Assembly: GCA_963965975.1 (NCBI GenBank)
Contig: OZ014425.1
Coordinates: 2,555,501-2,619,500, forward strand
Direction: 5' to 3'
Length of the DNA stretch: 64,000 nt
Source of the DNA: Xestospongia bergquistia
Taxonomy: Eukaryota; Porifera; Demospongiae; Haplosclerida; Petrosiidae
Made by a program: the position numbers and the translations under genes. This document shows, in pieces, positions 15,963-63,700 of this stretch. Positions within the stretch are counted from its first letter, which is position 1. Each line of letters begins with the position of its first letter. Below the pieces are notes generated by a model, which did no database searches, was not told the DNA's origin, and saw only the letters and a program-made list of their open reading frames with translations.

Positions 15963-16747
15963 CAAATAAATAGTGTCAATACTTCATGTGCATTAGTATA
16001 TTTACCTTCACTTTAAATTCAATGAGCTTTAGCCCTATCTACCTTGACTTTAAATTCAATGAGCTTTAGCCCTATCTACCTTGACTTTAAATTCAATAAG
16101 CTTTAGTCTTATCTACCTTGACTTTAAATTCAATGAGCTTTAGCCCTTAGTTTAGTGCTTTTGTAGTATCAGCTTGTAATAGTTTGTGCTAGACAGCATT
16201 AATTCCTTTTAGCAAGCAATGAATCATGACTTTATTTAGCAAGACAGAAGAAGGAACTGGATTTAATTCAGCCAAATCATTTGACAGTGTTCTCTGCAAT
16301 AAATGCGAGACAATAATGTTCCTCGGTACAGCCCAAGGGTAAATAAATACAGTCAAGTGTCAATACTTCATGTGCATTAGTATACCTAGCTTGAGTTTAA
16401 ACTATTGTGTCTGCTTTTGTATCAGTATCAGCAATGAGCTTTAGCCCTATCTACCTTGACTTTAAATTCAATGAGCTTTAGCCTTATCTACCTTGACTTA
16501 AAAATTCAATGAGCTTTAGCCCTTAGTTTAGTGCTTTTGTAGTATCAACTTGTATTAGTTTGCGCTAGACAGCATTACTTCGTTTTAGCAAGCAATGAAT
16601 CATGACTTTATTTAGAAAGACAGAAGAAGGAACTGGATTTCATTCAACCAAATCATTCGACAGTGTTCTCTGCAGTAAATCCGAGACAATGATGTTCCTC
16701 ACTACAGCCTAAGGGTAAATAAAATTGGACGAGTGTTTTTATTTATT

Positions 16748-30991: not shown

Positions 30992-32640
30992 CTAATAATT
31001 GTGAAATGCTAGGAAACAGTCACTATCTGGTTTTCCTGTGTGGCATAGGTTTTTTTTGCACATTTGGCATTCCCACTGTGTCAACTTCAATTGTTTTCCC
31101 TTCCTGTAGCAATGAGAGCATTTGCTTCGCTTTGCTGCCTTCATTGGGAAGTGTAGAGTTGGTACTGAGGGATGAATAGCAGAGGAAGGGCGACCTCTAA
31201 CTTTTCGACCGTTATAATTCCCAATTAGCTGTTTTGCCAACTCTGACCTGAAGTCAACGTATTGATGGTATACATGCCCTGTTGATGGTACATACCTGTG
31301 AAGGATGTAGGCATTTGCCAAAGTGAGTTCAAATAAAAACCAAAAGATGTATTTGTAGAATTTGTGGCTTTTCAGTCGTACACAGTAGTAGTGTCGTAGC
31401 TGGTCATTGCAATCAACCCCTCCCATATACTTGTTGTAGTCAATAACATTCAAAGGGCAGGTGAAAGCTTTTCTTGTGCCATCCTTTTGTTTTCTGGTTA
31501 CTGTGCCTTCTTCATTTCTGCAGTTGGTAGAGAGAACACTTACTGTTTTGTTGTCTTGCCACAATGAGAAAATGCAATTTTCTTTTTCAATTGTCTTGTA
31601 ATCTCCCCTCTCTGGTAGTCCCTTCTTAAGAAAAGGCTTAAATCCATCAGGATAGCCTACTCGATTTGATCGAATGGTGCCGCATGCATAGATCGAGTCC
31701 TTTAGAAGGTCATTGAAGAGCTGTACACTGGTGAAAAAGTTATCGCAGTACACTTTATAATGTTTGCCAACATGATTCCTGGTTAGATCTTTCACAACCC
31801 GTTCATGTATATGTGTTTCCGACCTGCCTCCCACTTTTCCAAGGTACACCTGAAATTGAGAAACATAGCCATTTATAGCATATGCTCTCATCCAGACTTT
31901 TATCCCTCTCTTTGTAGGTTTCTTGGGAAGATATTGCTTGAGAGAGGATCTTCAATTGAAGGGGATCATGGCCTCATCAATTGAGCTGGCACTGTGAGGA
32001 TTATATATCTCCAAAAACCTCTCTGATATGGAAGTTATCACCGGTCGGATTTTCCAAAGACGATCATAGCTAGGATCTGTTCGCTGAACTGAATAGGATT
32101 CATTCTGCGTGAAATGGAGAAACCGAGAGATTTCCAAGAATCGTCTCAGAGATATCCTGTCTGCTACTGGGGAGTTATAGTAAGTTGGATCTAATTTCCA
32201 GTAATCATAAAGGCATGGTAATTGATTGATTCCCATTAGAATCATGAATCCAAAATACGCTTGAATTTCAAGCAGTGTTACTTGGTCAAATCTCTCGTAG
32301 GCATCAGTTGATAGCACTTCTCGAGCGTATACATTAGTTTGCTCAGCAATCATATTGATTAGGGTATGAGAGAGGGGAACTGTAGGTTCACATGGAACAG
32401 TACAGGGAAGGACAGTAGTAGGCCTGTCAGTAGTAAGGTTAGTTTTAGTTGACTCAAAAAGGATTCACCTGACTCAAATTCTAATGGTTCATCAATCTCC
32501 ATAGCATCACAACTATAGAATTAGAAAAGACAAGCATCAAAGAATTATTTGGAGTGTTGGTATAATAACAGAAGCAGTAGACATGGTTATAATAATTCTT
32601 TCTTTTGATCTTACCTTTCCAGATTTTCGTCGGTGTCCAT
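30992..32640 (-). pseudogene. piggyBac transposase (PGBD4-like), nearly whole
   Basis: Cut-and-paste transposase of the piggyBac superfamily, read on the minus strand. A short first exon (32640-32615, MDTDENLE) ends at a GTAAG donor; the second exon starts at 32512 after TTCTATAG. An acidic N-terminus is followed by the catalytic core. The three conserved aspartates are visible in SSIDEAMIPF, KVYCDNFFTS and YNKYMGGVDCND. A cysteine-rich C-terminal finger (CSHCYRKGKQ, then CQMCKKNLCH and DSDC) ends the protein. Two lesions were seen: a nonsense codon right after IDEAMIPFN (TGA where relatives have glycine) and an apparent +1 frameshift near 32455 in the N-terminal part. It interrupts array 1, so it entered after the array formed. 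No terminal inverted repeats were found. The right edge is near TTAA at 32818-32821 and the left edge near 30560. Confidence 0.9.
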
Positions 32641-33520: not shown

Positions 33521-34009
33521 AACAAAAGGGAAAGACAATAGTAACAAATATGGTCAGAGAAGCAGTACTCCACGTCTGTTAGTATATCAAGCTTGACTTT
33601 TAAACTAGTCCTTTTCTCTGTGATATATTGACTTTAGTAAGAAGTATATTTAGTACTATGTTGCAAGTCTGAGTAATATTCATTAAGTAAATATGCTGGT
33701 TACTAAAGTATGTTGCATTCCATTTAGCCAAGTCATTTGGCAGTCTTCCCTGCAGTATTTCTGAGCGAATGATGTTCCTCGGTACATGGTAAAGTAATGT
33801 ATTACATCGTGATAGACTCAAGTAACATGATTTGTTGTCCTTCTAGGTATACGGATATCAGTGTAATGTTACATTCATATCGTATAACTTAACAATATTA
33901 CCTTATTTTAAACATACACACACACACATACATGCAGATGAAGGAAATAACAATTGGTAAGTATATTAACAATAAAAATGTATAAACATTAACTGGTATT
34001 TTGACATAA
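33521..34009. other. AT-rich spacer with short CA run
   Basis: A few residual array-1 phrases continue to about 33800. A (CA)n run lies near 33916-33930. No gene seen. Confidence 0.5.
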
Positions 34010-34011
34010 AC

Positions 34012-34075
34012 TAATACTACAAATATAATACTACCAAATGTAATACTGCCAAATGTAATACTGCAAATGTAATAT
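34012..34075. repeat. Left inverted repeat bracketing array 2
   Basis: ATACTACCAAATGTAATACT, GCCAAATGTAATACTGC and similar. The complement occurs at 38690-38740, on the far side of array 2. Confidence 0.65.
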
Positions 34076-34421
34076 TGTCATTAACATATTTTAACGTCAG
34101 TGTAAAATATATTATTCCTTCTCGTTTCTCTTTCATTACCCTAGATTCGCTGTACATCAGGACTAGGCTCAAGACATCCTCTGTCTCAAAAGAGTCTAGG
34201 GAGTAAGTTAAGACCATACAGTACTAGACTACTAGTGTACATTGATTCATAATACTTCAGGCTCAAGACTCAAGACATTCCTATACTTCGAAGAGTCTGA
34301 AGAGTAAGTTAACTGAATACAATACTAGTGTACATTAATTCATAATTAATTATTTCTGTTAATTTGTTTTTTATTACAATAGCTTCACTGGACATCAGGA
34401 TCAAGGATCAAGACATTTCTC

Positions 34422-34911
34422 TAGCCTCGTACCCAGGCTTTTGCGATAGGAAAGAAAGCCTGGTAACTACTATTAGCGCATGCATTTAATTTCCACAGAT
34501 TCCTTTGAAAGTAGTATACTCTAGGAATCCTCCGTCAACTATTGATGTCAAAATTCCTTTAATCACAATGTGAGACTATTTGTAGTACTGATAGAAAGTA
34601 TTCTTCTGCTCTACTCTATGCTAATGATGGAAAAGATGTTTTCGTGTGGTTTTCTATTCCAACAACACTGAACATGTTTGTTGCTCTTTTTGCTTTCATT
34701 AAGTATCTACAGAACCAACAAACTCAACTAGCCATGCCTAAACTCAGTAGTGAATGAAACATCATCAATAGAAACCCAGCCATTTACTTGTCATTTAATT
34801 CTAAATCTTGCCATTATGATGTCAGTATATTGCGTAAATTACAATAAACGCATGCACAAGCAGTAGTTACCAGGCTTTCTTTTCTATTGCGAAAACCTGG
34901 GTACAAGGCTA
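34422..34911. mobile_element. Mutator-like element with helicase remnant, 490 bp
   Basis: Terminal inverted repeats of about 65 bp: TAGCCTCGTACCCAGGCTTT at the left and its near-complement ending AAGGCTA at the right. A perfect 10-bp direct repeat GACATTTCTC lies at 34412-34421 and 34912-34921, splitting an array-2 core. The interior contains plus-strand text GATGGAAAAGATGTTTTCGT, which reads NDGKDVFVW in the helicase frame, matching the fragment at 27330, followed by non-helicase text where the Walker A box should be. Confidence 0.85.
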
Positions 34912-35629
34912 GACATTTCTCCATCTCAAGGACTCTTGGGAGTAAGTCAGTGCTAGTATAAATTTATTCATGATGCATTATTAATCTCTTTTATTACAAT
35001 AGATTCGCTGGTTGTCAGAGGTCAAGGATGAAGACATTCCTCTATCTCGATGAGTTTGTCAAGTAAGTTAACAGAATACAATACTAGGTTACATTGATTC
35101 ATGAAACACGATTACTCTTAACTTCTTTTATTACTATAGCTTGACTTGATGTCAGTCTCAAGGCTCAAGACATTCCTATATCTCAAAGAGTCTGAAGAGT
35201 AAGTTAACTGAATACAATCATAGTGTACATTAATTCATAAGTCTTAATTCATAATACATTAATTCATAATACTCTTAATCTCTTTTTCATTACTATAGCT
35301 TTGTTCGACGTCAGGCTCAAGGCTCAAGAAATTCATCTGAAGATTCTAGGGAGTAAGGCTCAAGGCATTCATGTATCTCGATAGGGAGTAAGATCATACA
35401 GTACTAGTATAAAGTAATTCATAATGCATCATTACCTTTAATATCTCTTTTATTGCTATGGCTTCGCTGGATATTGGGATCAAGAATCAAGACATTCTGC
35501 TATCTTAAAGACACTGGGGAGTAAGTTCACAGAATACAGTAGTAGTGTACATTAAGTCATAATCCATCATTACTCTTACTTTCTCTTTTATTACTGCATA
35601 TTACTCTTAATTTTTCTTTTATTACTGTA

Positions 35630-36570
35630 GCTTCACTGGACTTCAGGATCAAGGCTTGAGACATTCCTCTATCACAAAGAGTCTCACTCTGTGGAGTAAG
35701 TTAACAGCATACAGTACTAGTGTACATTAATTCATAATACCCATTACTCATAATACACATTATTATTACTATAGCTTCGCTGGATATCAGTATCAAGAAT
35801 CAAGACATTCTGCTATCTCAAAGACACTGGGGAGTAAGTTCACAGAATGCAGTAGTAGTGTACATTAAGTCATAATACATCATTACTCTTACTTTATCTT
35901 TTATTACTGCATATTACTCTTAATTTCTCTTATATTACTGTAGCTTCACTGGACTTCAGGATCAAGGCTTGAGACATTCCTCTATCACAAAGAGTCTCAC
36001 TCTGTGGAGTAAGTTAACAGCATACAGTACTAGTGTACATTAATTCATAATACCCATTACTCATAATACACATTATTATTACTATAGCTTCGCTGGATAT
36101 CAGTATCAAGAATCAAGACATTCTGCTATCTCAAAGACACTGGGGAGTAAGTTCACAGAATGCAGTAGTAGTGTACATTAAGTCATAATACATCATTACT
36201 CTTACTTTATCTTTTATTACTGCATATTACTCTTAATTTCTCTTATATTACTGTAGCTTCACTGGACTTCAGGATCAAGGCTTGAGACATTCCTCTATCA
36301 CAAAGAGTCTCACTCTGTGGAGTAAGTTAACAGCATACAGTACTAGTGTACATTAATTCATAATACCCATTACTCATAATACACATTATTATTACTATAG
36401 CTTCGCTGGATATCAGTATCAAGAATCAAGACATTCTGCTATCTCAAAGACACTGGGGAGTAAGTTCACAGAATACAGTAGTAGTGTACATTAAGTCATA
36501 ATACATCATTACTCTTACTTTATCTTTTATTACTGCATATTACTCTTAATTTCTCTTATATTACTGTAGC
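35630..36570. repeat. 313-bp dimeric higher-order repeat, three copies
   Basis: A two-unit segment of array 2 recurs at exactly 313-bp spacing. The marker GTCTCACTCTGTGGA occurs at 35681, 35994 and 36307. The copies are almost identical, showing recent expansion by whole dimers. Confidence 0.88.
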
Positions 36571-37016
36571 TTCACTGGACTTCAGGGTCAAGGCTCAAGA
36601 CATTCCTCTATCACAAAGAGTCTGTGGAGTAAGTTAACAGCATACAGTACTAGTGTACATTAATTCATAATACCCATTACTCATAATACACATTACTCTC
36701 AATTTCTATTTTATTACTATAGCTTCACTGGATATTGCGATCAAGAATCAAGACATTCTGCTATCTCAAGACGCTGGGGAGTAAGTTAACAGAATACAGT
36801 ACTGGTATAAATTAATTGATAATGCATCTTATCACTGTAGCTTCATTTGATGTCTGGCTCAAGTCTCAAGACATTCCTATACTTCGAAGACTCTGAAGAG
36901 TAAGTTAACTAAATACGATACTACTGTACATTAATTCATAATATAGCATAGTCTTAATTTGTGTTTTATTACAATAGCTTTGCTGGATGTCAAGATCAAG
37001 GATCAAGATATTTCTC

Positions 37017-37564
37017 TAGCCTCATACCCAGGCTTTCACAATAGAAAAGAAAGCCTGGTAACTACTGTTTGTGCATGCATTTAATTTCCACAGATTTCTT
37101 TGAAACTAGTATACTCTATGAATCCTCCATCAACTATGACGTCAAAATTCCTTTACCCATAATATGAGACCATTTGTAAAGTTTTCTTCTGCTCTACTGT
37201 ATGTTCTAAAGCTGCTAGCAATGCCAAATCTATTTCTTAAAAGGAGCAACTCTTGTTCATTGAAGCTATATATGATGGAAAAGATATTTTCGTGTGGTTT
37301 TGTATTCCGACAGCACTGAACAAATTTGTCGTTCTTTTTGCTTTCATTAAATCTCTGCAGAACCGACAAACTCAGCTAGACATGCCCAAACTCAGTAGTG
37401 AATGAAACGTCATCAATATAAACCTGACCCATTTACTTGTCATTTAATTTAAAATGTTGTCATTATGATATGAACATATAACATAATTTACAATAATTAA
37501 GCGCATACACAAGCAGTAGTTACCAAGCTTTCTTTTCTATCGCGAAAGCCTGGGTACGAGGCTA
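37017..37564. mobile_element. Mutator-like element with helicase remnant, 548 bp
   Basis: Same family and same insertion point within an array-2 core as the copy at 34422, with flanks GATATTTCTC (37007-37016) and GACAATTCTC (37565-37574), 8 of 10 matching. The interior is alignable with the other copy but keeps about 60-75 bp more, including a KEQ-like stretch before YDGKDIFVW. Shared site and content indicate duplication of the array segment with its insertion. Confidence 0.82.
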
Positions 37565-38689
37565 GACAATTCTCTATCTCAAAGACTTTTGGCAGTAAGT
37601 CAACAGCATTCAGTAGTCAGTACTAGTATGAAGTAATTCATTGCTCTTAATTTCTCTTGTATAACTGTAGCTTCGCTTGAAGTCAAGATAAAGGCTCAAG
37701 ACATTCCTCTATCTGAAGATTCTGGGAAGTAAGTTAGCAGCATATAGTACTGGTGTACATTACTTAAAAAAGACATCATTACTCTTGATTTTCCTTTTAT
37801 TACCATAGTTTCACTGGACATCATGATGAAGACTCAAGACATTCCTCTACCACAAAGAGTCTGTGGAGTAAGTTAACAGCACACAGTACTGGTGTGCATT
37901 AATTAATAAGTCTTAATTCATAATACATTAATTCATAATACTCCTAATCTCTTTTTCATTACTATAGCTTTGCTCGACATCAAGCTCAAGGCTCAAGAAA
38001 TTCATCTGAAGAGTCTAGGGAGTAAGGCTCAAGGCATTTATGTATCTCGAAGAGTCTATGGAGTAAGATCATACAGTACTAGTATAAAGTAATTCATAAT
38101 GCATCATAACCTTAAATATATCTCTTTTATTGCTATAGCTTCACTAGATATTGGGAACAAGAATCAAAGACATTCTGCTATCTGTCAAAGACGCTGGGGA
38201 GTAAGTTCACAGAATGCAGTAGTAGTGTACATCATTACTCTTACTTTCTCTTTTATTACTGCATATTACTCTTAATTTCTCTTTTATTACTGTAGCTTCA
38301 CTGGACTTCAGGATCAAGGTCAAGACATTCCTCTATCACAAAGAGTCTGTGGAGTAAGTTAACAGCTTACAGTACTAGTGTACATAATTCATAATACTCA
38401 TTACTCATAATACACATTACTCTCAATTTCTGTTTGATTACTATAGCTTCGCTGGATATCGGGATCAAGAGTCAAGATTTTCCACGATCTCAAAGACGCT
38501 GGGCGGTATGTTAACAGAATACAGTACTAGAGTACATTAATTCATAATGCATCTATTAATGTAGCTTCGCTGGACTTGTGGATCAAGGCTCAAGACATCT
38601 GGATCAAGACTCAAGACAGACATTCCTCTATCTCAAAGAGCCTGGGCAGTAAGTTAACAACATACAGTAAATTTTGACAAGTAATCTAA

Positions 38690-38740
38690 TGAGTGGTAGT
38701 ATTACATTTGGCAGTGTTACATTTGGTAGTATTACATATT
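38690..38740. repeat. Right inverted repeat bracketing array 2
   Basis: GTAGTATTACATTTGGCAGT and following bases are the complement of the motif at 34012-34075, about 40 bp of similarity. Confidence 0.65.
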
Positions 38741-38929
38741 TATGATAAAATGGTGTGTCTGTATCTATACTACTCTATATATTGTACCCAATTATACAAT
38801 TTGTAGTAGTCAGTAAAGGTAAGTATCGAGAATACAACTATAAAGGTGAGTATATCTTCCAGAGAGAAAGCCGAGGAAGCCACAAGAGATTAGTTAGTCT
38901 GCTTTTGTGAGGGAAATGAGATTATGTAG

Positions 38930-39120
38930 AGCATTAATGGGTGTGGCTATTGTTGCTTGATAATTGGGTGTGGTGCTTGCAGCTATGCATTAATTTCCTA
39001 GACTACCTGGAGCATTAATTAAAATATGAGGTGTGGTCAAAATAAACCACATCCAAAATATTTAATGGGTGTGGCTATCGAAGTTTGATGAGTGGGTGTG
39101 GTGCTTGCAGCCATGTACAG
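38930..39120. repeat. Two-copy GTGTGG-rich direct repeat
   Basis: ATGGGTGTGGCTAT, a short gap, then TTGATGAGTGGGTGTGGTGC and TTGCAGC occur at 38937-38985 and 39063-39113. Between them, GAGGTGTGGT and AACCACATCC can form a small hairpin. Confidence 0.6.
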
Positions 39121-41134: not shown

Positions 41135-41335
41135 AAAATACACCTAAACCATAAACCCTAAATACTAACATTATAACATAAACCCAAACCTGAAACGAGA
41201 ATTTCTAAATCACTAAACCCTAACTTCTAAACCCTAAACTTGAAAACCTAAACCCTAAACCTTAAATCCTAAAACCAAAATGGTAAACACTAAATTTTAA
41301 AAACTAAACTCTAAACCCAAAACCTACAACTAGAT
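41135..41335. repeat. Degenerate telomere-like CCCTAAA repeats
   Basis: About 200 bp of variants on TAAACCCTAAAC. The commonest unit is 7 bases (CCCTAAA), with CCCTAAC and CCTAAAC variants. The usual animal telomere repeat is the 6-base CCCTAA, so this is either a degraded interstitial tract or simple-sequence drift. Confidence 0.6.
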
Positions 41336-46549: not shown

Positions 46550-48590
46550 TTAATAGACTAAATGTCTTTAAGCCTTTATTGCAAATAGTTTGCAGTGGTA
46601 AGTATAAACCCATTAGTGTAAGTAGTTCGCATTGTTAAGTTTACCAAAATACTGTAAACCCTAACAATCCTTTAAATTAAAGAGTTTCAAGATTTAATGG
46701 AAATGAACTTAATAAAGAGTCAATTGCAGTTTATTGAGTTATACTCTCTGAGTCCTTTAACCTAGGCAGTTTAATTAAAAAATGTTCACTGCTGTTCATT
46801 TAGTTAGTTTCTTTAAGTCCTTTAGTCTAAGCACTTTGCATTTTATTGAGTTAACTTTATAAAGTAAATTGCTAGGACTAAAGGACTTAAAGGGACTAAA
46901 TAAATAAACTGCCATTAACAATATATTTAGTTTCTTCGCATTAATGCTCTAAAGTCTTTAATTTAAAGACTTTAGAAGGTTTAGACTATTGAGTTTAGTT
47001 TATAAAATAAACTGCTGAGACTGAGGGACTTAAAGGGACTAAGTAAATAAACTGCCATTAACAGCTTATTAACTTTGTTTGCATTAACAGTCTAAGTCTT
47101 TAATTTAAAGACTTCAGAAGGTTTAGACTGTTGAGTAAATTTCAAATAGTAAACTGCTCAGACTAAAGGACTTAAAGGGACTAACTAAGTAAACTGCCAT
47201 TAACAGTTTATTAAGTTTGTTTGCAATAACAATTTTAAATCTTTAAATTAAAGACTTTAGAAGGTTTAGACAGTGGAGTAAATTTTAAAAAGTAAACTGC
47301 TCAGACTGAAGGACTTAAAAGGACTAACTAAGTAAACTGCCATTAACAGTTTGTCGAGCTTGTTTGCATTAATGCTCTAAAGTCTTTAATTTAAAGACTT
47401 TAGAAGGTTTAGACTATTGAGTGAACTTTCTAAAGTAATCTGTTCAGACTAAAGGAGTTAAAGGGACCAACCAAATAAGCTGCAATTAATTGTTTACTAA
47501 GTTGGTGTGTATTAAAACATTCAAGTCTTTAATTTAAAGACTTTAAGAGGGTTAGGCTATTGATTTCAGTTTATTAAGTAAACTGCAAAGACTAAAGGAC
47601 TTAAACTGACTAACTAAATAAACTGCCATTAACAGTTTATTAAGTTTGTTTGCATTAATGCTCTAAAGTCTTTAATTTAAAGACTTTAGAAGGTTTAGAT
47701 TATTGAGTGAATTTTATAAAGTAAACTGCTCAAAATAAAAGACTTAAAGGGACTAACTAAATAAACTGGAATTAACATTTTATCAAGTTTGTTTCCAATA
47801 ACGCTCTAATGTCTTTAATTTAAAGACTTTAGAAGTTTAGACTATTGACTTAAGGTTATAAAATAAACTGCTGAGACTAAAGGCCTTAAAACGACTAACT
47901 AAATAAACTACCATTAACAGTTTATTAAGTTTGTTTGCATTAACGCTTTAAGTCTTTAATTTAAAGACTTTAGAAGGTTTAGACTATTGGGTGTACTTTA
48001 AAAAGGAAACTGATCAGACTAAAGGACTTAAATGGACTAACTAAATAAACATCAATTAACGGTTTATTAAGTTGGTTTGTATTAAAGCACTAAAGTCTTT
48101 AATTTAAAAACTTTAGAAGGTTTAGACTATTGAGTGAACTTTCTAAAGTAATCTGTTCAGACTAAAGGACTTAAAGGGACCAACTAAATAAGCTGCATTT
48201 AACAGTTTACTAAGTTGGTGTGTACAGTTTATTAGGTTTGTTTGCATTAACGCTCTAAAGTCTTTAATTTAAAGACTTTATAAGGTTTCGACTATTGAGT
48301 TTAGTTTATAAAATAAACTGCATAGACTAAGGGACTTAAAGGGACTAAGTACATAAACTGCCATTAAAAGCTTATTAACTTTGTTTCATTAACGTTCTAA
48401 AGTTTTTAATTCAATGACTTTAGAAGGTTGAGACTGTAGAGTTAACTTTATAAAGTAAACTGCTCAGACTAAAGGACTGAAAGGGACTAACTAAATAAAC
48501 TGCCATTAACAGTTTATTAAGTTTCTTTCCATTAACGCTCTAAAGTCTTTAATTTAAAGACTTTAGAAGGTTTAGACTACTTTAAAAAGT
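46550..48590. repeat. 143-bp satellite, first orientation
   Basis: About 13-14 monomers at 142-143 bp spacing (GAAGGTTTAGAC at 46975, 47117 and 47260). Each holds a dyad AAGTCTTTAATTTAAAGACTT, then GAAGGTTTAGACTATTGAGT, then AAACTGCTCAGACTAAAGGA. Monomers are diverged, and the left edge fades between 46550 and 46730. Confidence 0.88.
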
Positions 48591-48756
48591 ACACCCAATA
48601 GTCCCTTTATATATTTAGTCCCTTTAAGTCTTTTAGACTTAGCAATTTACTTTATAAACTTCAATCAACAGTCTAAACCTTCTAAAGTCTTTAAATTAAA
48701 GACTTCAGAGCGTTAACACAAACAAACTTACTAAACTGTTAATAGCAGTTTATTTA
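48591..48756. repeat. 143-bp satellite, opposite orientation, start
   Basis: Just after 48590 the monomers read in the complementary sense (AGTCTAAACCTTCTAAAGTC). The junction sits in ACTACTTTAAAAAGTACACC. This orientation continues to the window end, with two transposons inserted. Confidence 0.85.
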
Positions 48757-49555
48757 TACTCTGTCCGAGTTGAGAAAAGCCACCCAGACGTGTGAATAAC
48801 TTTGCCGTTTTACGTGCTATCCACATGGGACTTGCACCAATCGATTCAGCTTGCAAACGCGCATTTTATATATAAAATTTGGCTCTCTAGCGCTACGATA
48901 AAGTATCAAACTATAAAACTCCATACATTTTGAATGGCATCCCTTTTGCATACTTTAAATTGCACACCTTCGAGCAGATAACAAAAATCGATTTTCACCT
49001 CAAAAAGTCAGCCAACTATCACCGAGAAGCCAGCCGACTATCACATGGCAAGTCAAAATTACAATTCTAATTATAAAAATAAATGCCTTCGTATCAATTA
49101 TACTATTAAAATGATAACCAGGTATCGTCTTTTGCAATTTTGGGCAGCTATAAAGCCAACATGGTTTTGAAAAAAACCTTTTGACAAAATTAATAAGGAA
49201 AACTGAAAATATCTAAAATCGTTCGTCATCAGAACTGTCAGATTGATACTGGAACGTGAAAGTCCTGGGGCATCACAGGTCTGTTTCAGAGATCCTTCAG
49301 TCCGTTTGCGGCTGCCAAGTTCCTCGAAATATTCATAGACATTCACAGCAACCTCCTTTGTTTGTGATCGCAATCTTTTTCCACTTACAAGCACGAGAAA
49401 AAACGTGGTGTGTTCGCATGACATCCACGTGAACAAATAATGAAAACACTTAACACGTACTTCAGCGCTAACAGGCGAGGAAATACCTCACGTTACATTC
49501 CATGCATAAAACACCTTTTTTTTAATAAAGGGCTTTTCTCAACTCAGACAGAGTA
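48757..49555. mobile_element. Tc1/mariner-type non-autonomous element, 799 bp
   Basis: 25-bp terminal inverted repeats with one mismatch (left TACTCTGTCCGAGTTGAGAA continuing AAGCC; right complement has T for the second C of GTCC). Flanked by TA at 48755-48756 and 49556-49557. The satellite reads on across it once a single TA is counted, which confirms a TA target duplication. It carries only the N-terminal part of a transposase on the minus strand. Confidence 0.9.
49098..49436 (-). pseudogene. Tc1/mariner-like transposase N-terminal fragment
   Basis: 112-codon minus-strand frame. Residues about 19-65 (GKRLRSQTKEVAVNVYEYFE, then GLSRSSI) look like the N-terminal helix-turn-helix DNA-binding domain of IS630/Tc1-type transposases. 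Text after about residue 66 is not transposase-like, and no DDE/D catalytic domain is present in the element. The ATG chosen is the first in frame; the true start may be nearer GKRLRS. Confidence 0.6.
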
Positions 49556-50285
49556 TAGTTAGTACCATTAAATCCTTTAGACTGAACAGTTTACTTTATA
49601 AACTTCACTCAATAGTCTAAACCTTCTAAAGTCTTTAAATTAAAGACTTTAGAGCGTTAATTCAAACCAACTTACTAAAATGTTAATTGCAGTTTATTTA
49701 GTTAGTAACGTTAACTCTTTTAGACTGAGTAGTTTACTTTATAAACTTCATTCAATAGTCTAAACCTTCTAAAGTCTTTAAATTAAAGACTTTAGACCCT
49801 TAATGCAAACCAACTTACTAAACTGTTAATAGCAGTTTATTTAGTTAGTCCCATTAAGTCCTTTAGACTGAACAATTTACTTTATAATAATCACGCAATA
49901 GTCTAAACCTTCTAAAGTCTTAAAAGTAAAGACTTTAAAGCGTTAAAGCAAACCAACTTACTAAACTGTAAATTGCACTTTATTTAGTTAGTCCCATTCA
50001 GTCCTTTAGACTGAGCAGTTTACTTTATAAACTTCACTCAATAGTCTAAACCTTCTAAAGTCTTTAAATTAATGAGTTTAGAGCGTTAACGCAAACCAAC
50101 TTACTAAACTGTTAATAGCCGTTTATTTAGTTAGTCACATTAAGTCCTTTAGACTGAGCAGTTTACTTTATAAACTTCACTCAATAGTCTAAACCTTCTA
50201 AAGTCTTCAACTTAAAGACTTTAGAGCATTAATGCAAACCAACTTACTAAACTGTTAATTGCAGTTTATTTAGTTAGTCCCATTA
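49556..50285. repeat. 143-bp satellite, between the two inserted elements
   Basis: About five monomers with the AAGTCTTTAAATTAAAGACTT dyad, interrupted on both sides by TA-flanked transposons. Confidence 0.88.
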
Positions 50286-51448: not shown

Positions 51449-54400
51449 CTGTAACAAGGATAATTAACTCAAAAATACTAAAATATATATATACATTACA
51501 CATACTGGAAATTTGAGAACTTTTGGTGACTGTTCTAGTGCACTTTCTAAAATAGCAAGCCATAAATTCAAAGTATAATTAACCTCAGGCTGTATCACTT
51601 ACTATTCTCATCTACTTCACTGAGACTGATGTCTCCATCACTGGATTTACATGCTGTAGCATCTAAAGATAATTCTTCAGGATGGAATATTTTTTTCCAT
51701 TTTTCATATCTGATGTCAGGTAGATCATGACCATTCTCATACTTCCTAGAAAACCGACTGTGCTTTCTTCTGTAAAATCAAATTTTGATGTACTCTGTTC
51801 ACTTTGTTTTTTTTCTTTCTTTTGTCTCTCTTTCTCGGCTTTTTCAACTGCTCTTTTAAGCTTTCTCTCCTCTACCTCCTTCTTTTTCTGTTCTCGTTCC
51901 ATTGCCTTCTTTTCTCACTGTTGCTTTCTAAGATCTTTAGCTTTTAATTCATCTGCTTTCTTCATTTCTTTTTCTCTTATCAACTGAAGATTTTCAGAAC
52001 TTGTTAAAACACGAGCACTGTGGTTTGTCTTTTTCTCATTACTTGGTAGCTGAGGTAAAGTAAGAAAATCATGAAGAGTAGATGGCTGAACTTTTGTAAT
52101 GTAATCTTCGTCTTCAGAAAAGTTACCATAGTAACCACAGGTACTGTCTTGACTACAAGTGTCTTTCTCATAATAATCAATGCTTTCACTATCGGAAGTA
52201 ATACAGGTATGAGGATGAGATTTAGCTGGGCTATACAGAGGAAGAAACAGTCTCATCTTGGAGGTTATCATATCTATTTTCCCATCCTCCTCAAGTTGCA
52301 AGTAACGTAATACTGCATACCTGTTGAGGGGGTATATACCAGTGGATCTAAACCCAGCAACAATATTAGCTGGTGTCATCGCCTTTGTCCAGGCTCGACT
52401 AAACGTTTCGGTGAAATTAAATCTATTAACAGCTTCCCCAGGATTACAGGACATGTAGAGATGACACTCATTATTGTATGCGTTTTTTAAGGGGCTAAAA
52501 CATGACCTGTCCAATGGTTGACACAAATGAGTTGTATGAGGTGGCAAGCAAAATAAGATGATCTGATTTGCAGCAGCTGTCCTGATCAATTGAGGTTGGT
52601 AATGTGAAGAATGTCCATCCAGGAGTAACAAGATGGGTCGCTGTGGAGGGATGTGAAGTAAGAAGTGATTAGTAAACCATTCCTAAATCAATTCGGAATC
52701 TATCCATCCATTTTTAGACACCCCTTATGCAGTACCTGAGATTTCTCCTTTAGTGAAATTGGGCTTGAGTTTTTTCCGATCAAAAATTATCATCGGAGGC
52801 AAAAGGTAACCAGAAGCACTGCATGCTGACAAAACAGTAATTTGGGCTTTATCACCACTAGTAATACAGGAAATATCTCTCTGACCTTGTACTCCAATTA
52901 TTTTGCCAGGTTTATGTTCCAATGGGAACCCGCTCTCATCACAGTTAAAAATCAGCATTGGTCATTCAAGCAAATTATTAGACTTCAATGTTTCTTCAAG
53001 CAAGTCAAAATATCGATTTATGACATCTGGGTTAGCTGCAATAGCTCTACGATATGCTAATTTGGATCAATATCTTAATCGTAGTTTTGGATGCTGCTTC
53101 ACAAATGAGCCCCACCAACCAGTAATGACATTGACATCTTCAACTTCACATTGACGTTTCTTTGCTAGTGCTGCTCTAACAATACAAAGAACTTGTTCCT
53201 TTGTCCGAGCGAAGCCAATTTTAGCTGAACCTACCAAAAATGTTACTAGTTCTTCTTCTTCAATGTCATTTAAGTATCGAGGGGGTCCACTGTGAGCACC
53301 AAAAGAGACATTACCAGACACTCGGTCCCATAATCTTGACTTTGGCACATTATACATTTCAGCAGCTTTTCTAAGAGTAAATCGTCCTTTAGCCACGTCC
53401 TTTGCTGCTATACGTAACTGGGTCTCACTCCACCGCTTGTAGTGCCTATTCCTTGGCTTTTTTCCTCCAGAGGATAACCTAGGCTATTAAAGAAGATGTA
53501 ACTATAACATAATAAATCATATATAAACAAAGAAAAATAGACTCATGTCAGGGGCACTTAAAAACGGACTTGCATGTTTTCAAACAATTAATTGTCTCAG
53601 CACCCAATTAAGCACATAAACTTTATGGTTTGCAATAAGTCATTTGTACAAAGGTTTTTCACAATCTTATACTAATTGTCATAGCTTTGTAGAGAGACTC
53701 CTAGTTATGTATAAAACATAGAAAGACTCTAGCTCATTGTAGTGGACTATTGCATTCTGAAGATTCAATAAGACCAGATGAAAACAAATAAGTAAGGCAG
53801 ATATGTCTACTAGTATGCTTGAAGGTATACATCTCTTCTCCACTTCATAACAAAGACTATACATTGCACCAATGACTACATGTGATATAACTATATACTG
53901 CAATTATTTAGAGCCTTTGATCATATCATGAATTTTGAATAAGCAACTCATTAGAACTCATTTCTCTATCAAAATAATGACTAGTGACTTTAACATGTTA
54001 TCTGCCTACCCTTCCTCCTATTTTTGTGACTATGACATCATACCTATAGTATAATAGATGGTCTATGACATATTTTAGTTTATGTGATGACTTTATCTTT
54101 TTTTCTCAAAGGTATTAAAAACAATAATATTGTCATATAGTTAATTGATTATCATTTAAAAATTTATTTCACTCAGATTATTATAAATCAAATATCTATC
54201 ACATGTTTACCTACTTACAGTAAAGTTAGTCATAAAGTCAAGCAGCTATTAAGCCTTAGTACAACACTCTTATTATTAAAAAAGTGAACTGACTCTGTTA
54301 TTACAGACATATTTACTAATCACTAAAATGGCCAGGGTTGACTAAGGTATTACAAACACATAGCTCAAGCCATCAAGTCTTCCACATTGACATCTATACA

Positions 54401-54779: not shown

Positions 54780-57700
54780 TAAGTCCTTTAGACTGAGCAG
54801 TTTACTTTATAAATTTCACTCAATAGTCTAAACCTTATAAAATTTTAAAATAAAGACTTTAGAGCGTTAATGCAAACAAACTTACTAAACTGTTAATTGC
54901 AGATTATTTAGTTAGTCCCATTAAGTCCTTTGGACTGAGCAATTTACTTTATAAACTTCACTCAATAGTGTAAACATTCTAAAGCCTTTAAATTAAAGAC
55001 TTTAGAGCGTTAATACAAACCAACTTACTGAACTGTTAGTAGCAGCTTGTTGAGTTAGTCCCATTAACACCATTACACCTAGCAGTATACTTTAAAAACT
55101 TCTCTCAATAGTCTACACCTTCTAAGGTCTTTAAATTAAAGGCTTTAGAGCGTTAATGCAAACCAATTTACTAAACTGTTCATTGCAGTTTATTTATTTT
55201 AGTGTCATTAAGTCCTTTAGACTGAACAGTTTACTTTATAAAATTCCCTCAATAGTATAAACCTTATAAAGTCTTTAAATTAAAGACTTTAGAGCGTTAA
55301 TGCAAACCAACTTACTAAACTGTTAGTAGCAGCTTGATGAGTTAGTCCTATTAGTCCTTTCGACGGAGCAATTTACTTCATAAAATTCACTCAATAGTCT
55401 AAACCTTCTAAAGTCTTTAAATTAAAGACTTTAGACCCTTAATGCAAGCCACCTTACTAAACTGTTAATTGCAGGTTATTTAGTTAGTTGCACTAAGTCC
55501 GTTAGACTTAGCAAATTACTTTATAAAATTCACTCAATAGTCTAAACCTTTAAAGACATTCAATTAAAGACTTTCGACAGTTAATGCAAACCAACTTACT
55601 AAACTGTTAGTAGCAGTTTGTATAGTTAGTCCCATTAAGTCCTTTAGACTGAGCAGTTTACTTTATAAACTTCACTCAAAAGTCTAAACCTCCTAAAGTC
55701 TTTAACTTAAAGACTTTAAAGCGTTAATGCAAAAAACTTACTAAACATTTAATAGCTGTTTATTTAGTTAGTGCCATAAAGACCTTTATACTGAGCAGTT
55801 TACTTTATAAACTTCACTCAATAGTCTAAACCTTTTTAAGTCTTTCACTTAAACACTTTAGACCATTAATGCAAACAAATTTACTAAACTGTTAGTAGCA
55901 GTTTCTTTAGTTAGTCCCATTAAGTCCTTTACACTGAGCAGCTTACTTTATAAACTTCACTCAATAGTCTAAACCTTCTAAAGTCTTTAACTTAAAGACT
56001 TTAGAGTGTTAATGCAAACCAACTTACTAAAATGTTAGTAGCAGTTTATTTTGTTAGTACCATTAAGTCCTTTAGACTGAGCAGTTTTCTTTATAAACTT
56101 CACTCAATAGTCTAAACCTTCTAAAGTCTTTAACTTAAAGACTTTAGACCGTTAATGCAAAAAAACTTGCTAAACATTTAATAGCTGCTTATTTAGTTAG
56201 TGCCATAAAGACCATTATACCGAGCAGTTTACTTTATAAACTTCACTCAATAGTCTAAACCTTCTAAAGTCTTTAACTTAAAGACTTTAGAGCGTTACTG
56301 CAAACCAACTTACTAAACTGTTAATAGCTCTCTATTTAGTTAGTGCTATAAAGACCTTTATAGTGAACATTTGACTTTATAAACTTCAGTCAATAGCCAA
56401 AACCTTATAAAGTGTTTAACTTAAAGACTTTAGAGCGTTAATGCAAAAACACTTACTAAACTGTTAGTAGCAGTTTGCTTAGTTAGTCCAATTAAGTCCT
56501 TTAGACTGAGCAGTTTACTTTATAAAATTCACTTAACAGTCTAAACATTCTAAAGTCTTTAACTTAAAGACTTTATAGCGTTAATGCAAACAAACATTCT
56601 AAACTGTTAATAGCAGTGTGCTTAGATAGTTTAGAGCGTTAATACAAACAAACTTACTAAACTGTTAATAGCTGTTTATTTAGATAGTGCCATAAAGTCC
56701 TGTAGAATGAGCAGTTTATTTTATAAACTTCTCTCAATATTCTAAACCTTCTAAAGTCTCTAACTTAAAGACTTTAGAGCGTTAATGCAAACTAACTTAC
56801 TAAACTGTTAATAGCTGTTTATTTAGTTAGTGCCATAAAGTCCTTTAGACTGAGCAGTTTACTTTATAAACTTCTCTCAATAGTCTAAACCTTCTAAAGT
56901 CTTTAACTTAAAGACTTTAGAGCGTTAATGCAAACTAACTTACTAAACTGTTAATAGCTGTTTATTTAGTTAGTGCCATAGAGTCCTATAGACTGAGCAG
57001 TTTACTTTATAAAATTCTCTCAATAGTCTAAACCTTCTAAAGTCTTTAACTTAAAGGCTTTAGAGCTTTAATGCAAAATAACTTACTAAACTATTAATAA
57101 CTGTTTATTTAGTTAGTGCCATAAAGTCCTTTAGACTGAGCAGTTTACTTTATGAACTTATCTCAATAGTCTAAACCTTCTAAAGTCTTTAAATTAAAGA
57201 CTTTAGAGCATTAATGCAAAATAACTTACTAAACTGTTAATAGCTGTTGATTTAGTTAGTGCCATAAAGTCCTTTAGACTGAGCAGATTATTTTAAAAAC
57301 TTCTCTCAATAGTCGAAACCTTCTAAAGTCTTTAACTTGAAGACTTTAGAGCATTAATGCAAACTAACTTACTAAACTGTTAATAGCTGTTTATTTACTT
57401 AGTGCCATAAAGTCCATTAGACTGAGCAGTTTACTTTACAAAGTTCTCTCAATTGTCTAAACCTTCTAAAGTCTTTAACTTAAAGACTTTAGAGCGTTAA
57501 TGCAAACTAACTTACTAAACTGTTAATAGCTGTTTATTTAGTTAGTGCCATAAAGTCATTTAGACTGAGCAGTTTATTTTAAAAAATTCTCTCAACAGTC
57601 TAAACCTTCTAAAGTGTCTAACATAAAGACTTTAGTGCGTTAATGCAAACTAACTTACTAAACTGTTAATAGCTGTTTATTTATTAGTGCCATAAAGTCC

Positions 57701-60700
57701 TTTAGACTGAGCAGTTTACTTTATAAACTTCTCTCAATAGTCTAAACCTTCTAAAGTCTTTAACTTAAAGACTTTAGGGCGTTAATGCAAACTAACTTAC
57801 TAAACTATTAATAGCTGTTTATTTACTTAGTGCCATAAAGTCCTATAGACTGAGCAGTTTACTTTACAAAGTTCTGTCAATAGTCTAAACCTTCTAAAGT
57901 CTTTAACTTAAAGACTTTAGAGCGTTAATGCAAACTAACTTACTAAACTGTTAATAGCTGTTTATTTACTTAGTGCCATAAAGTCCTTTAGACTGAGCAG
58001 TTTACTTTATAAACTTCTCTCAATAGTCTAAACCTTCTAAAGTCTTTAACTTAAAGACTTTAGAGCGTTAATGCAAACTAACTTACTAAACTGTTAATAG
58101 CTGTTTATTTAGTTAGTGCCATAAAGTCCTTTAGACTGAGCAGTTTACTTTATAAAATTCTCTCAATAGTCTAAAACTTCTAAAGTCTTTAACTTAAAGA
58201 TTTTAGAGCGTTAATGCAAACTAACTTACTAAACTGTTAATAGCTGTTTATTTAGTCAGTGCCATAAAGTCCTTTAGACTGAGCAGTTTACACTATAAAA
58301 TTCTCTCAATAGTCTAAACCTTCTAACGTCTTTAACTTAAAGACTTTAGAGCGTTAATGCAAACTAACTTACTAAACTGTTAATAGCTGTTTATTTAGTT
58401 AGTGCCATAAAGTCCTATAGACTGAGCAGTTTACTTTATAAAAATCTCTCAAGAGTCTAAACCTTCTAAAGTCTATAACTTAAAGACTTTAGAGTGTTAA
58501 TACAAACAAACTTACTAAACTGTTAATAGCTGTTTATTTAGTTAGTGCCATAAAGTCCTGTAGAATGAGCAGTTTATTTTATAAACTTCTCTCAATATTC
58601 TAAACCTTCTAAAGTCTCTAACTTAAAGACTTTAGAGCGTTAATGCAAAATAACTTACTAAACTGTTAATAGCTGTTTATTTAGTTAGTGCCGTAAAGTC
58701 CTATAGACTGAGCAGTTTACTTTATAAAAATCTCTCAATAGTCTAAACCTTCTAAAGTCTTTTACTTAAAGACTTTAGAGCGTTAATGCAAACTAACTTA
58801 CTAAACTGTTAATAGCTCTTTATTTAGTTAGTGCCATAAAGTCCTTTAGACTGAGCAGATTATTTTATAAACTTCTCTCAATAGTCTAAACCTTCTAACG
58901 TCTTTCACTTGAAGTCTTTAGAGCGTTAATGCAAACTAACTTACTAAACTGTTAATAGCTGTTTATTTACTTAGTGCCATAAAGTCCATTAGACTGAGCA
59001 GTTTACTTTACAAAGTTCTCTCAATTGTCTAAACCTTCTAAAGTCTTTAACTTAAAGACTTTAGAGCGTTAACGCAAACTAACTTACTAAACTGTTAATA
59101 GCTGTTTATTTAGTTAGTGCCATAAAGTCCTTTAGACTGAGGAGTTTATTTTAAAAAAATCTCTCAACAGTCTAAACCTTCTAAAGTGTGTAACATAAAG
59201 ACTTTAGAGCGTTAATGCAAACTAACTTACTAAACTGTTAATAGCTGTTTATTTAGTTAGTGCCATAAAGTCCTTTAGAGTGAGCAATTTACTTTATAAA
59301 CTTCTCTCAATAGTCTAAACCTTCTAAAGTCTTTAACTTAAAGACTTTAGGGCGTTAATGCAAACTAACTTACTAAACTGTTAATAGCTGTTTATTTACT
59401 TAGTGCCATAAAGTCCTTTAGACTGAGCAGTTTACTTTACAAAGTTCTGTCAATAGTCTAAACCTTCTAAAGTCTTTAACTTAAAGACTTTAGAGCGTTA
59501 ATGCAAACTAACTTACTAAACTGTTAATAGCTGTTTATTTATTTAGTGCCATAAAGTCCTTTAGACTGAGCAGTTTACTTTATAAAATTCTCTCAATAGT
59601 CTAAACCTTCTAAAGTCTTTAACTTAAAGACTTTAGAGCGTTAATGCAAACTAACTTACTAAACTGTTTATAGCTGTTTATTTAGTTAGTGCCATAAAGT
59701 CCTTTAGACTGAGCAGATTATTTTATAAACATCTCTTAATAGTCTAAACCTTCTAAAGTGTCTAACATAAAGACTTTAGAGCGTTAATGCTAACAAACTT
59801 ACTAAACTGTTAGTAGCTGTTTATTTAGTTAGTGCCATAAAGACCTTTAGATTGAGCAGTTTACTTTATAAAGTTCTCTCAATAGTCTAAACCTTCTAAA
59901 GTCTTTAACTTAAAGACTTTAGAGCGTTAATGCAAACTAACTTACTGAACTGTTAATAGCTGTTTATATAGTTAGTGCCATAAAGTCCTATAGACTGAGC
60001 AGTTTACATTATAAACTTCTCTCAACAGTCTAAACCTTCTAAAGTCTTTAACTTAAAGTCTTTGGAGCGTTAATGCAAAATAACTTACTAAACTGTTAAT
60101 AGCTTTTTATTTAGTTAGTGACATAAAGTCCTATAGACTGAGCAGTTTACTTTATAAAATTCTCTCAATAGTCTAAACCTTCTGAAGTCTATAACTTAAA
60201 GACCTTAGAGCGTTAATACAAACAATCTTACTAAACTGTTAATAGCTGTTTATTTAGTTAGTGCCATAAAGTCATGTAGACTGAGCAGTTTATTTTATAA
60301 AATTCTCTCAATAGTCTAAACCTTCTAAAGGCTCTAACTTAAAGACTTTAGAGCGTTAATGCAAACAACTTAATAAACTGTTAATAACTGTTTATTTACT
60401 TAGTGCCATAAAGTCCTTTAGACTGAGCAGTTTACTTTATAAACTTCTCTCAATAGTCTCAACCTTCTAAAGTCCTTAACTTAAAGACTTTAGAGCGTTA
60501 AAGCAAACTAACTTACTAAACTGTTAATAGCTGTTTATTTAGTTAGTGCCATAAAGTCCTTTAGACTGAGCAGTCTACATTATAAACTTCTCTCAATAGT
60601 CTAAACCTTCTAAAGTCTTTAACTTAAAGACTTTAGAGCGTTAATGCAAACTAACTTACTAAACTGTTAATAGCTGTTTATTTACTTAGTGCCATAAAGT

Positions 60701-63700
60701 CCTATAGACTGAGCAGTTTACTTTACAAAAATCTCTCAATAGTCTAAACCTTCTAAAGTCTATATCTTAACGACTTTAGAGAGTTAATACAAAAAAACTT
60801 ACTAAACTGTTAATAGCTGTTTATTTGGTTAGTGCCATAAAGTCCTGTAGACTGAGCACTTTCTTTTATTAACTTCTCTCAATAGTCTAAACCTTCTAAA
60901 GTCTCTAACTTAAAGACTTTTGAGCGTTAATGCAAACTAACTTACTAAACTGTTAATAGCTGTTTATTTACTTAGTGCCATAAAGTCCTTTAGACTGAGC
61001 AGTTTACTTTATAAACTTCTCTCAATAGTCTAAACCTTCTAAAGTCTTTAACTTTTAGAGCGTTAATGCAAACTAACTTACTAAACTGTTAATAGCTGTT
61101 TATTTAGTTAGTGCCATAAAGTCCTATAGACTGACCAGTTTACTTTATAAACTTCTCTCAATAGTCTAAACCTTCTAGAGTCTTTAACTTAAAGAGTTTA
61201 GAGCGTTAACGCAAAATAACTTACTAAACTGTTAATAGCTGTTTATTTAGTTAGTGCCATAAAGTCCTTTAGACTGAGCAGTTTACTTGATAAACTTCTC
61301 TCAATAGTCTAAACCTTCTAAAATCTTTAACTTAAAGACTTTAGAGCGTTAATGCAAACTAACTTACTAAACTGTTAATAGCTGTGTATTTAGTTAGTGC
61401 CGTAAAGTCCTATAGACTGAGCAGTTTACTTTATAAAAAACTCTCAATAGTCTAAACCTTCTAACGTCTTTAACCTGAAGTCTTTAGAGCGTTAATGCAA
61501 ACTAACTTACTAAACTGTTAATAGCTGTTTATTTACTTAGTGCCATAAAGTCCTTTAGACTGAGCAGTTTACTTTACAAAGTTCTCTCAATAGTCTAAAC
61601 CTTCTAAAGTCTTTAACTTAAAGACTTTAGAGCGTTAATGCAAACTAACTTACTAAACTGTTAATAGCTGTTTATTTACTTAGTGCCATAAAGTCCTTCA
61701 GACTGAGCAGTTTACTTTACAAAGTTCTGTCAATAGTCTAAACCTTCTAAAGTCTTTAACTTAAAGACTTTAGAGCGTTAATGCAAACTAACTTACTAAA
61801 CTGTTAATAGCTGTTTATTTAGTTAGTGCCATAAAGTCCTATAGACTGAGCAGTTTACTTTATAAAAATCTCTCAATAGTCTAAACCTACTAAAGTCTAT
61901 AACTTAACGACTTTAGAGCGTTAATACAAAAAAAACTTACTAAACTGTTAATAGCTGTTTATTTGGTTAGTGCCATAAAGTCCTGTAGACTGAGCAGTTT
62001 CTTTTATTAACTTCTCTCAATAGTCTAAACCTTCTAAAGTCTCTAACTTAAAGACTTTAGAGCGTTAATGCAAACTAACTTACTAAACTGTTAATAGCTG
62101 TTTATTTACTTAGTGCCATAAAGTCCTTTAGACTGAGCAGTTTACTTTATAAACTTCTCTCAATAGTCTAAACCTTCTAAAGTCTTTAACTTTTAGAGCG
62201 TTAATGCAAACTAACTTACTAAACTGTTAATAGCTGTTTATTTAGTTAGTGCCATAAAGTCCTATAGACTGACCAGTTTACTTTATAAACTTCTCTCAAT
62301 AGTCTAAACCTTCTAAAGTCTTTAACTTAAAGAGTTTAGAGCGTTAATGCAAACTAACTTACTAAACTGTTAATAGCTGTTTATTCAGTTAGTGCCGTAA
62401 AGTCCTATAGACTGAGCAGTTTACTTTATAAAAATCTCTCAATAGTCTAAACCTTCTAAAGTCTTTTACTTAAAGACTTTAGCGAGTTAATTTAAACTAA
62501 CTTACTAAACTGTTAATAGCTCTTTATTTAGTTTGTGCCATAAAGTCCTTTAGACTGAGCAGATTATTTTATAAACTTCTCTCAATAGTCTAAACCTTCT
62601 AACGTCTTTAACTTGAAGTCTTTAGAGCGTTAATGCAAACTAACTTACTAAACTGTTAATAGCTGTTTATTTACTTAGTGCCATAAAGTCCTTTAGACTG
62701 AGCAGTTTACTTTACAAAGTTCTGTCAATAGTCTAAACCTTCTAAAGTTTTTAACTTAAAGACTTTAGAGCGTTAATGCAAACTAACTTACTAAACTGTT
62801 AATAGCTGTTTATTTACTTAGTGCCATAAAGTCCTTTAGACTGAGCTTTTTACTTTATAAAAATCTCTCAATAGTCTAAACCTTCTAAAGTCTTTTACTT
62901 AAAGACTTTAGAGCGTTAATGCAAACTAACTTACTAAACTGTTAATAGCTGTTTATTTAGTTAGTGCCATAAAGTCCTTTAGACTGAGCTTTTTACTTTA
63001 TAAAAATCTCTCAATAGTCTAAACCTTCTAAAGTCTTTTACTTAAAGACTTTAGAGCGTTAACGCAAACTAACTTACTAAACTGTTAATAGCTGTTTATT
63101 TAGTTAGTGCCATAAAGACCTTAAGACTGAGCAGTTTACTTTATAAAGTTCTCTCAATAGTCTAAACCTTCTAAAGTCTTTAACTTAAAGACTTTAGAGC
63201 GTTAATGCAAACTAACTTACTAAACTGTTAATAGCTGTTTATTTAGTTAGTGCCATAATGACCTTTAGACTGAGCAGTTTACTTTATAAAATTCTCTCAA
63301 TAGTCTAAACCTTCTAAAGTCTTTAACTTAAAGACTTTAGAGCATTAATGCAAACTAACTCACTAAACTGTTAATAGATGTTTATTTAGTTAGTGCAATA
63401 AAGTCCTTTAGACTGAGCAGTTTATTTTATAAACTTCTCTTAATAGTCTAAACCTGTCTAACATAAAGACTTTAGAGCGTTAATGCTAACTAACTTACTA
63501 AACTGTTAATAGCTGTTTATTTAGTTAGTGCCATAAAGACCTTTAGACTGAGCAGTTTACTTTATAAACTTCTCTCAATAGTTTAAACCTTCTAAAGTCT
63601 TTAACTTAAAGAGTTTAGAGCGTTAATGCAAACTAACTTACTAAACTGTTAATAGCTGTTTATTCAGTTAGTGCCGTAAAGTCCTATAGACTGAGCAGTT

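Follow-up and report, generated by a model that had tools for sequence, protein, structure and literature searches.

A dispersed family of tandem arrays with putative micro-exons and, in several of them, slowly changing candidate splice sites

Introduction

In the long noncoding RNA (lncRNA) FIRRE, 7 of the 13 exons in human and 11 of the 23 in mouse overlap the local repeat RRD (PMC4820808), and the transcript has been reported to be mainly circular in the differentiation of human embryonic stem cells (PMC5910558). In fission yeast, cryptic introns of heterochromatic repeat transcripts are described as needed for the production of small interfering RNAs, and repeat silencing as dependent on splice sites (PMC11696164). 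The micro-exon genes of Schistosoma contain many short exons of 3-81 bp, have long introns, and encode secreted proteins (PMC10526429). Here we describe a tandem array of putative micro-exons at positions 34100-38660 on the + strand of a 64-kb stretch of DNA (hereafter “the window”; G000:C15:2555501-2619500), which belongs to a genome of 146 Mb in 21 contigs. Each unit of the array consists of a short core, bounded by acceptor-like and donor-like splice sites, and an intron-like spacer. We give slightly less than even chances to the reading that the array holds the exons of a noncoding transcription unit, dispersed in many copies, whose cores are spliced serially or into circles.

The array would resemble the FIRRE lncRNA in that a repeat forms many exons of a spliced noncoding RNA. 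Unlike FIRRE, which is described as one locus with discontinuous local repeats, exon and spacer have been amplified together, head to tail, into arrays of as much as some 53 kb, and copies are spread over many loci. The likeness to the fission-yeast repeats, which are also noncoding and carry several splice sites mainly on one strand, is an analogy only: the dh element is described as having about six inefficiently spliced introns, whereas the present arrays would have tens to hundreds, which are regular and near consensus. Many short exons are also shared with the Schistosoma genes, but here a clear coding signal is missing and the spacers are 60-140 nt long. In protein-coding clusters of mutually exclusive exons of the Dscam type, tandem similar exons in one frame lie behind a constant exon. 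Our array has the same layout, but lacks a common length class. No published description of this array family was recognised in literature searches limited to open-licence papers.

Results and discussion

Structure of the window array

The array contains 26 donor-like sites (21 AGTAAGT, two AGTAAGG, two AGTAAGA, and one GGTATG). In the 22 of 26 units that could be aligned, four being excluded as too long or too short, GTAAGT is typically followed by an AT-rich spacer, in many units by a CTTAAT-like motif that we take to resemble a branch point, and then by a pyrimidine tract, TATAG or TGTAG, and the core. An earlier note, made from the letters of the window, had described about two dozen units with consensus splice sites. 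The array is real and most units have a pyrimidine-rich acceptor, but a few sites are off consensus: the unit at 34203-34309 lacks a TATAG or TGTAG acceptor, and the acceptor near 35460 reads TATGG. The cores had been given as 59-65 nt long, with both lengths leaving a remainder of two when divided by three. Cores of 59 nt (eight of 16) and 65 nt (three) do occur, but so do cores of 58 nt (four) and 62 nt (one), and only 12 of 16 lengths are 2 modulo 3. These 16 cores are what remained of 17 picked by a core pattern after a spurious one inside an inserted palindrome had been removed, and units without a standard acceptor escape this pattern. The 18 measured spacers range from 60 to 121 nt (median 94.5 nt). 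The pattern TATAG-N52..66-GTAAGT occurs seven times in the window, six of them in the array (2.01 expected), and TGTAG-N52..66-GTAAGT ten times, seven of them in the array (1.54 expected). Neither count was reached in any of 100 whole-window shuffles, with the reservation that repeat copies are non-independent.

The two halves of the array match each other with about 83% identity over 1313 aligned columns, and in both halves the corresponding unit is interrupted by a palindromic insertion. The parts of the window copy are as follows, with the basis of each assignment in brackets.

33784..34006, + strand: left flank common to diverged relatives (homology)
33938..33956, + strand: putative 19-nt micro-exon, starting ATGAAG, between CAG and GTAAGT (genome pattern search)
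34012..34074, + strand: left 15-bp tandem repeats (repeat and inverted-arm searches)
34100..38660, + strand: array of cores and intron-like spacers (26 donor-like sites)
34304..35843, + strand: first half-array block (matched by 36900-38516)
34420..34913, no strand: palindromic insertion within one unit, resembling a miniature inverted-repeat transposable element (inverted arms)
36900..38516, + strand: second half-array block (counterpart of the first)
37006..37575, no strand: second copy of the palindromic insertion, within the corresponding unit (inverted arms)
38694..38737, - strand: right set of 15-bp tandem repeats, in the orientation opposite to the left one (repeat and inverted-arm searches)
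38745..39110, + strand: right flank common to diverged relatives, 66% identical to that of locus L029 (homology)

Clear homology of the left flank ends near 33784, with a weaker match to locus L030 that extends to 33683. The inverted arms at 34018-34062 and 38698-38742 are 91% complementary. Known structural RNAs were rejected as an identity of the array, as the 64-kb window contained no Rfam family at gathering score and no tRNA found by ARAGORN.

Splice columns change slowly in several arrays

Array units were collected with a profile that was made from 10 seed units and passed through two rounds of refinement, with matches accepted at E ≤1e-6, and the search was repeated after loci L041 and L042 had been added (L-numbers denote fetched loci, C-numbers contigs of the source genome). 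The 133 columns analysed were those present in ≥60% of rows. For each array, a FastTree tree of the distinct units with >60% of the columns was used to count parsimony changes per column. The expectation for the AG and GT columns was derived from the remaining unit columns. The tree test covered the window array, L029, L030, L031, L032, L042, and the long array on contig C4.

In the window array, the AG/GT columns had changed once against 6.8 changes expected (p = 0.042), and the nine splice columns twice against 15.3 (p = 0.005). No AG/GT change was found in L029 (3.7 expected, p = 0.039) or in L031 (6.6 expected, p = 0.022), the latter being left out of the pooled analysis because it belongs to the same clade as the window array. 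When the window array, L029, L030, and L032 were pooled, there was one AG/GT change against 14.5 expected (two-block shift test, p = 0.0065) and there were six changes in the nine splice columns against 32.7 expected (p = 0.0014, same test). Few AG/GT changes were seen in four of five independent short arrays, with p <0.05 singly in the window array and L029 only. Among units with all four columns, AG and GT were both intact in 19/20 units of the window array, 23/23 of L031, 23/23 of L029, 27/27 of L030, 15/15 of L032, 5/5 of L033, and 10/12 of L042, and in 47/99 units of the long array on contig C4. Of the latter, 17 kb were analysed, and its splice columns change at the background rate (33 AG/GT changes against 28.3 expected, p = 0.74). 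Within-array divergence is similar in the C4 array (0.158) and the window array (0.147). As the C4 array has diverged to a similar degree without any deficit, a mutation bias at the AG/GT bases fails to explain the other arrays. The splice-site reading of the earlier note is supported by evolution in part: the AG/GT columns are slow to change in the window array and the four-array pool, but show no constraint in L042 and in the analysed part of the C4 array.

The core is nowhere clearly more conserved than the spacer, either within arrays or between subfamily consensuses. Changes per column in core and spacer were 1.75 and 1.66 in the window array, 0.95 and 0.89 in L029, 0.55 and 0.56 in L030, 0.50 and 0.41 in L032, 0.77 and 0.56 in L042, and 7.82 and 6.36 in the C4 array. 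Between subfamily consensuses, identity was 1.00 at AG/GT, 0.97 over the nine splice columns, 0.84 in the core, and 0.85-0.93 in the parts of the spacer. Equal divergence of core and spacer is one half of what the earlier note had named as speaking for a satellite with chance splice motifs, and this half was observed. Change that is spread evenly over the whole unit, as in a simple satellite, was found in the C4 array and L042, and not in the window array, L031, and L029 (each p <0.05) or in the four-array pool.

A dispersed module and its relatives

A search for the micro-exon pattern at ≤2 mismatches returned 74 genome sites on many contigs, with none for the reversed-pattern control and none in prokaryote genome contigs and viral contigs. 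By their exon letters, 49 sites on nine contigs are of the type found in a macrorepeat that includes the window copy, and 25 are others, one of which (C4:4173218) resembles the macrorepeat type. These counts comprise exact or near matches to typed patterns, and the family may be larger. Nine of the 25 other sites were analysed, namely L029, L030, L032-L035, L041, L042, and the 17 kb of the C4 array. Loci were chosen by micro-exon, repeat, or unit and not by the splice sites of their arrays, but the micro-exon is intact in most of them, so that constrained arrays may be over-represented.

The module recurs at L029 (C3:3828473; 23 units by profile search), L030 (C10:1953503; 27), L032 (C12:5176526; 16), L033 (C5:5991568; five), L034 (C14:3832414; one), L035 (C7:3301348; two), and L042 (C10:1889013; 13), where the counts for L030 and L042 cover the fetched part of arrays that extend beyond it. 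All seven keep the array grammar, and the arrays of L029 and L030 are about 72-75% identical to that of the window. Matches listed for the C4 array (G000:C4:3938173-3991892) span positions 3938506-3991892, which is about 53 kb with an estimated 390 units, so that array size across the family ranges from one to an estimated 390 units; the micro-exon at the start of the C4 array has lost its GT. L041 on C8 has kept the micro-exon and the left repeats, and in its fetched part another insertion replaces the array. By eye, this insertion (G000:C8:5626000-5628700) resembles a reverse-transcriptase element.

Copies on several contigs share one dispersed module architecture, with the order upstream quasi-palindrome (in four relatives), 19-nt micro-exon, 15-bp repeats, array, inverted repeats, and right flank. 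The quasi-palindrome was present in the four relatives with enough sequence, is 62-64% self-complementary, and is centred about 970-1000 nt upstream of the micro-exon. Homology among relatives reaches about 1.5-1.65 kb past the left repeats, ending near the left end of the quasi-palindrome, and about 0.6-0.7 kb past the right 15-bp repeats, which are present in inverted orientation in those relatives whose right side is complete. Positions 1-216 of L030 contain reversed 15-bp-like repeats and a micro-exon-like sequence upstream, as in two head-to-head modules. The short spacers of the arrays fit the genome, since the NIDO/sushi gene that adjoins L035 has introns of 45-57 nt. The combination of NIDO and sushi domains in this gene points to an animal, perhaps a sponge.

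All 20 of the 10-kb loci fetched around other macrorepeat copies match the window, with longest matches of 2.3 to 9.0 kb at 91-99.6% identity; the more divergent ones include L020, L025, and L026. The left flank has at least 40 long genome matches at 94-100%, the window included, which among the matches listed fall on contigs C4, C5, C6, C7, C10, C11, C13, and C15, with C14 added by the micro-exon search. The distance from one copy to the next is mostly about 110-220 kb, though it is 65 kb on C6 and 11 kb on C11 in exceptional cases, and the copies sit at roughly 33-64% along the contigs. We infer that the mid-contig macrorepeat carrying the window copy is probably centromeric.

A 143/286-bp satellite occupies 46844-50285 and 54780-64000 of the window, where its orientations appear to be opposite, and among the matches listed it occurs in the same mid-contig blocks of C4, C5, C10, C11, C13, and C15. 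Elsewhere in the window, two adjacent open pieces on the - strand at 30992-32464 match DDE_Tnp_1_7 and are presumably piggyBac-like, and two at 51915-53483, also on the - strand, match DDE_1 and HTH_psq and are presumably pogo/Jerky-like. Islands of a 37-bp tandem repeat (7913-8098, 9534-9756, 11172-11357, and 15999-16147) lie amid repeats with periods of 188-376 bp, and 41205-41324 consists of degenerate CTAAACC repeats, which to us resemble the plant-type telomere motif.

Coding potential of the cores

We consider it improbable that the arrays belong to a protein-coding gene that selects a single core, as a variable cassette, to follow the ATG micro-exon. The micro-exon does start with ATG, and the frame that it sets, which enters the core at the third base, is open in 14/14 cores of L032, 23/27 of L030, 18/19 of L031, 4/5 of L033, and 10/16 of the window. 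Most cores of L032 (14/14), L030 (23/27), and L031 (15/19), like those of the window, are 2 modulo 3 in length. In L029, by contrast, all 21 cores are 60 nt long, the ATG-set frame is blocked in 20 of 21, and the micro-exon itself runs into a stop (ATG AAG CAC TAA). The frame is also blocked in the remaining 6/16 cores of the window and in the single picked cores of L034 and L035. Over all arrays, core lengths range from 57 to 65 nt and cover all three residues modulo 3. A common length class together with an open frame, as would be expected of mutually exclusive exons, was not found.

According to the earlier note, most cores have one frame open. Nine cores from eight arrays were typed, and the first frame is indeed open in all nine, with a similar peptide in seven, but mononucleotide shuffles leave a given frame open in 25-37% and at least one frame open in 64-81% of cases, and as the nine cores are related, this is weak evidence. 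A common motif is read in three different frames across L032, L033, and L030, and openness is not frame-specific, since open cores are plentiful in each of the three frames; in several arrays none of the frames is strongly blocked. Changes per column in the three classes of core columns, for which significance was not computed, were 3.68, 5.22, and 4.44 in the pool without C4, 1.63, 1.61, and 2.0 in the window array, and 7.63, 8.44, and 6.39 in the C4 array, where the middle class holds the third positions of the ATG-set frame and the last class those of the frame that is always open. In L029, L042, and L030 it is the former that change most, and in the window array the latter; on this basis the cores may have a weak coding past. 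The same positional pattern is seen in the C4 array with its unconstrained splice sites, where it is no weaker, and no frame is kept across arrays as a secreted protein would have it. The earlier note had held a choose-one mode or a noncoding splicing decoy to be more plausible than serial inclusion. A coding choose-one cassette is disfavoured on grounds of length, frame, and motif, whereas the array may well be a noncoding splicing array or decoy.

Weighing the noncoding exon array against its alternatives

An alternative to which we give an appreciable chance, though well short of even, is a satellite inside a dispersed repeat module, whose ancestral unit carried an exon and its splice sites by chance. 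Its array would no longer take part in splicing, and the seeming constraint would stem from youth, chance, or former use. The about equal change of core and spacer would be expected of it, as would the range of array sizes, the C4 array and L042 without splice constraint, and the absence of the upstream palindrome from the window copy. It would also agree with the macrorepeat copies. When 20 macrorepeat loci and L031 were set against the nearest window unit, 200 distinct variants emerged, and with all loci counted these strike the AG/GT columns about as expected (6 against 6.3). Two of the six fall at a unit that is already broken in the window, where L020 has AG, and without L020, L025, L026, and L031, one of 97 variants falls on AG/GT against 3.2 expected. 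Variants per column were about twice as frequent in the core (2.07) as in the spacer (1.09). These numbers mean that at least some of the splice constraint in the window array predates the spread of the macrorepeat, and the macrorepeat copies may or may not be under constraint today. What speaks against the satellite is the deficit of changes in the nine splice columns, in the window array alone and in the four-array pool, since homogenisation should presumably affect all columns alike. A DNA transposon with the inverted 15-bp repeats as its ends and the array as an internal satellite is slightly more improbable than the coding cassette. Inverted repeats do flank the array and their pattern has 196 genome matches at ≤3 mismatches, but they are internal to the homologous module, and neither a terminal inverted repeat nor a target duplication was seen at the ends of homology, which were inspected on the left side in four relatives and on the right side in three. 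An element ending at the 15-bp repeats was rejected, as homology runs beyond them. Because spliced arrays could also reside in a transposon, the probabilities given to these explanations overlap.

Several observations count against the reading as a noncoding exon array itself. Taken alone, L030 (no AG/GT change, 2.2 expected, p = 0.25) and L032 (none, 1.8 expected, p = 0.23) are non-significant. L042, with an intact micro-exon, shows two AG/GT changes against 2.6 expected (p = 0.52) and six against 6.0 in the nine columns, and adding it to the pool raises the AG/GT count to three against 17.1 (summed figures). The match of observed and expected AG/GT variants among macrorepeat copies belongs here as well. 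The quasi-palindrome of the relatives was not found in the 64-kb window or in the fetched macrorepeat loci; with clear homology stopping near 33784, this element, which in the relatives lies about 1 kb upstream, is missing from the window copy. The 15-bp arms, with duplex energies of -62.4 to -98.2 kcal/mol within modules (arms chosen by hand), pair no better within than between modules; selection for paired arms was rejected on this ground, complementary as they are. In folding, five cores did not surpass their shuffled versions (z -0.18 to 0.81), and a structured core RNA was likewise rejected.

Proposed mechanism and implications

If the window array is the exon array of a noncoding transcription unit, its origin would lie in the amplification of one exon of a spliced noncoding RNA unit. 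The + strand would be transcribed, the spacers would be spliced out, and the resulting RNA would be a chain or a circle of cores. In known genes, paired flanking repeats favour skipping or back-splicing of the intervening sequence, and the inverted 15-bp repeats could pair in the same way, looping out the array. Given the wide variation in array length and the equal pace of change in core and spacer, selection has more probably acted on the splicing of the transcript than on the content of the exons. The window copy would have been carried into the mid-contig, probably centromeric, macrorepeat without the upstream palindrome, and it may be a relic.

A wider claim, which we regard as tentative and on balance unlikely, is that the modules represent a noncoding RNA family selected for being spliced, in which head-to-tail copying of an exon with its splice sites has produced anything from one to hundreds of copies. 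The splice signals would be kept while the content drifts, and very long or macrorepeat-borne arrays would lose the constraint. If this is true, the arrays could load spliceosomes on repeat transcripts and thereby steer silencing or the formation of circular RNA. If the arrays are spliced, the apparently intact and decayed arrays within one genome would be natural replicates for studying selection on the splicing of repeat RNA, and DNA that is probably centromeric, in a genome resembling that of an animal, would carry dense splice signals.

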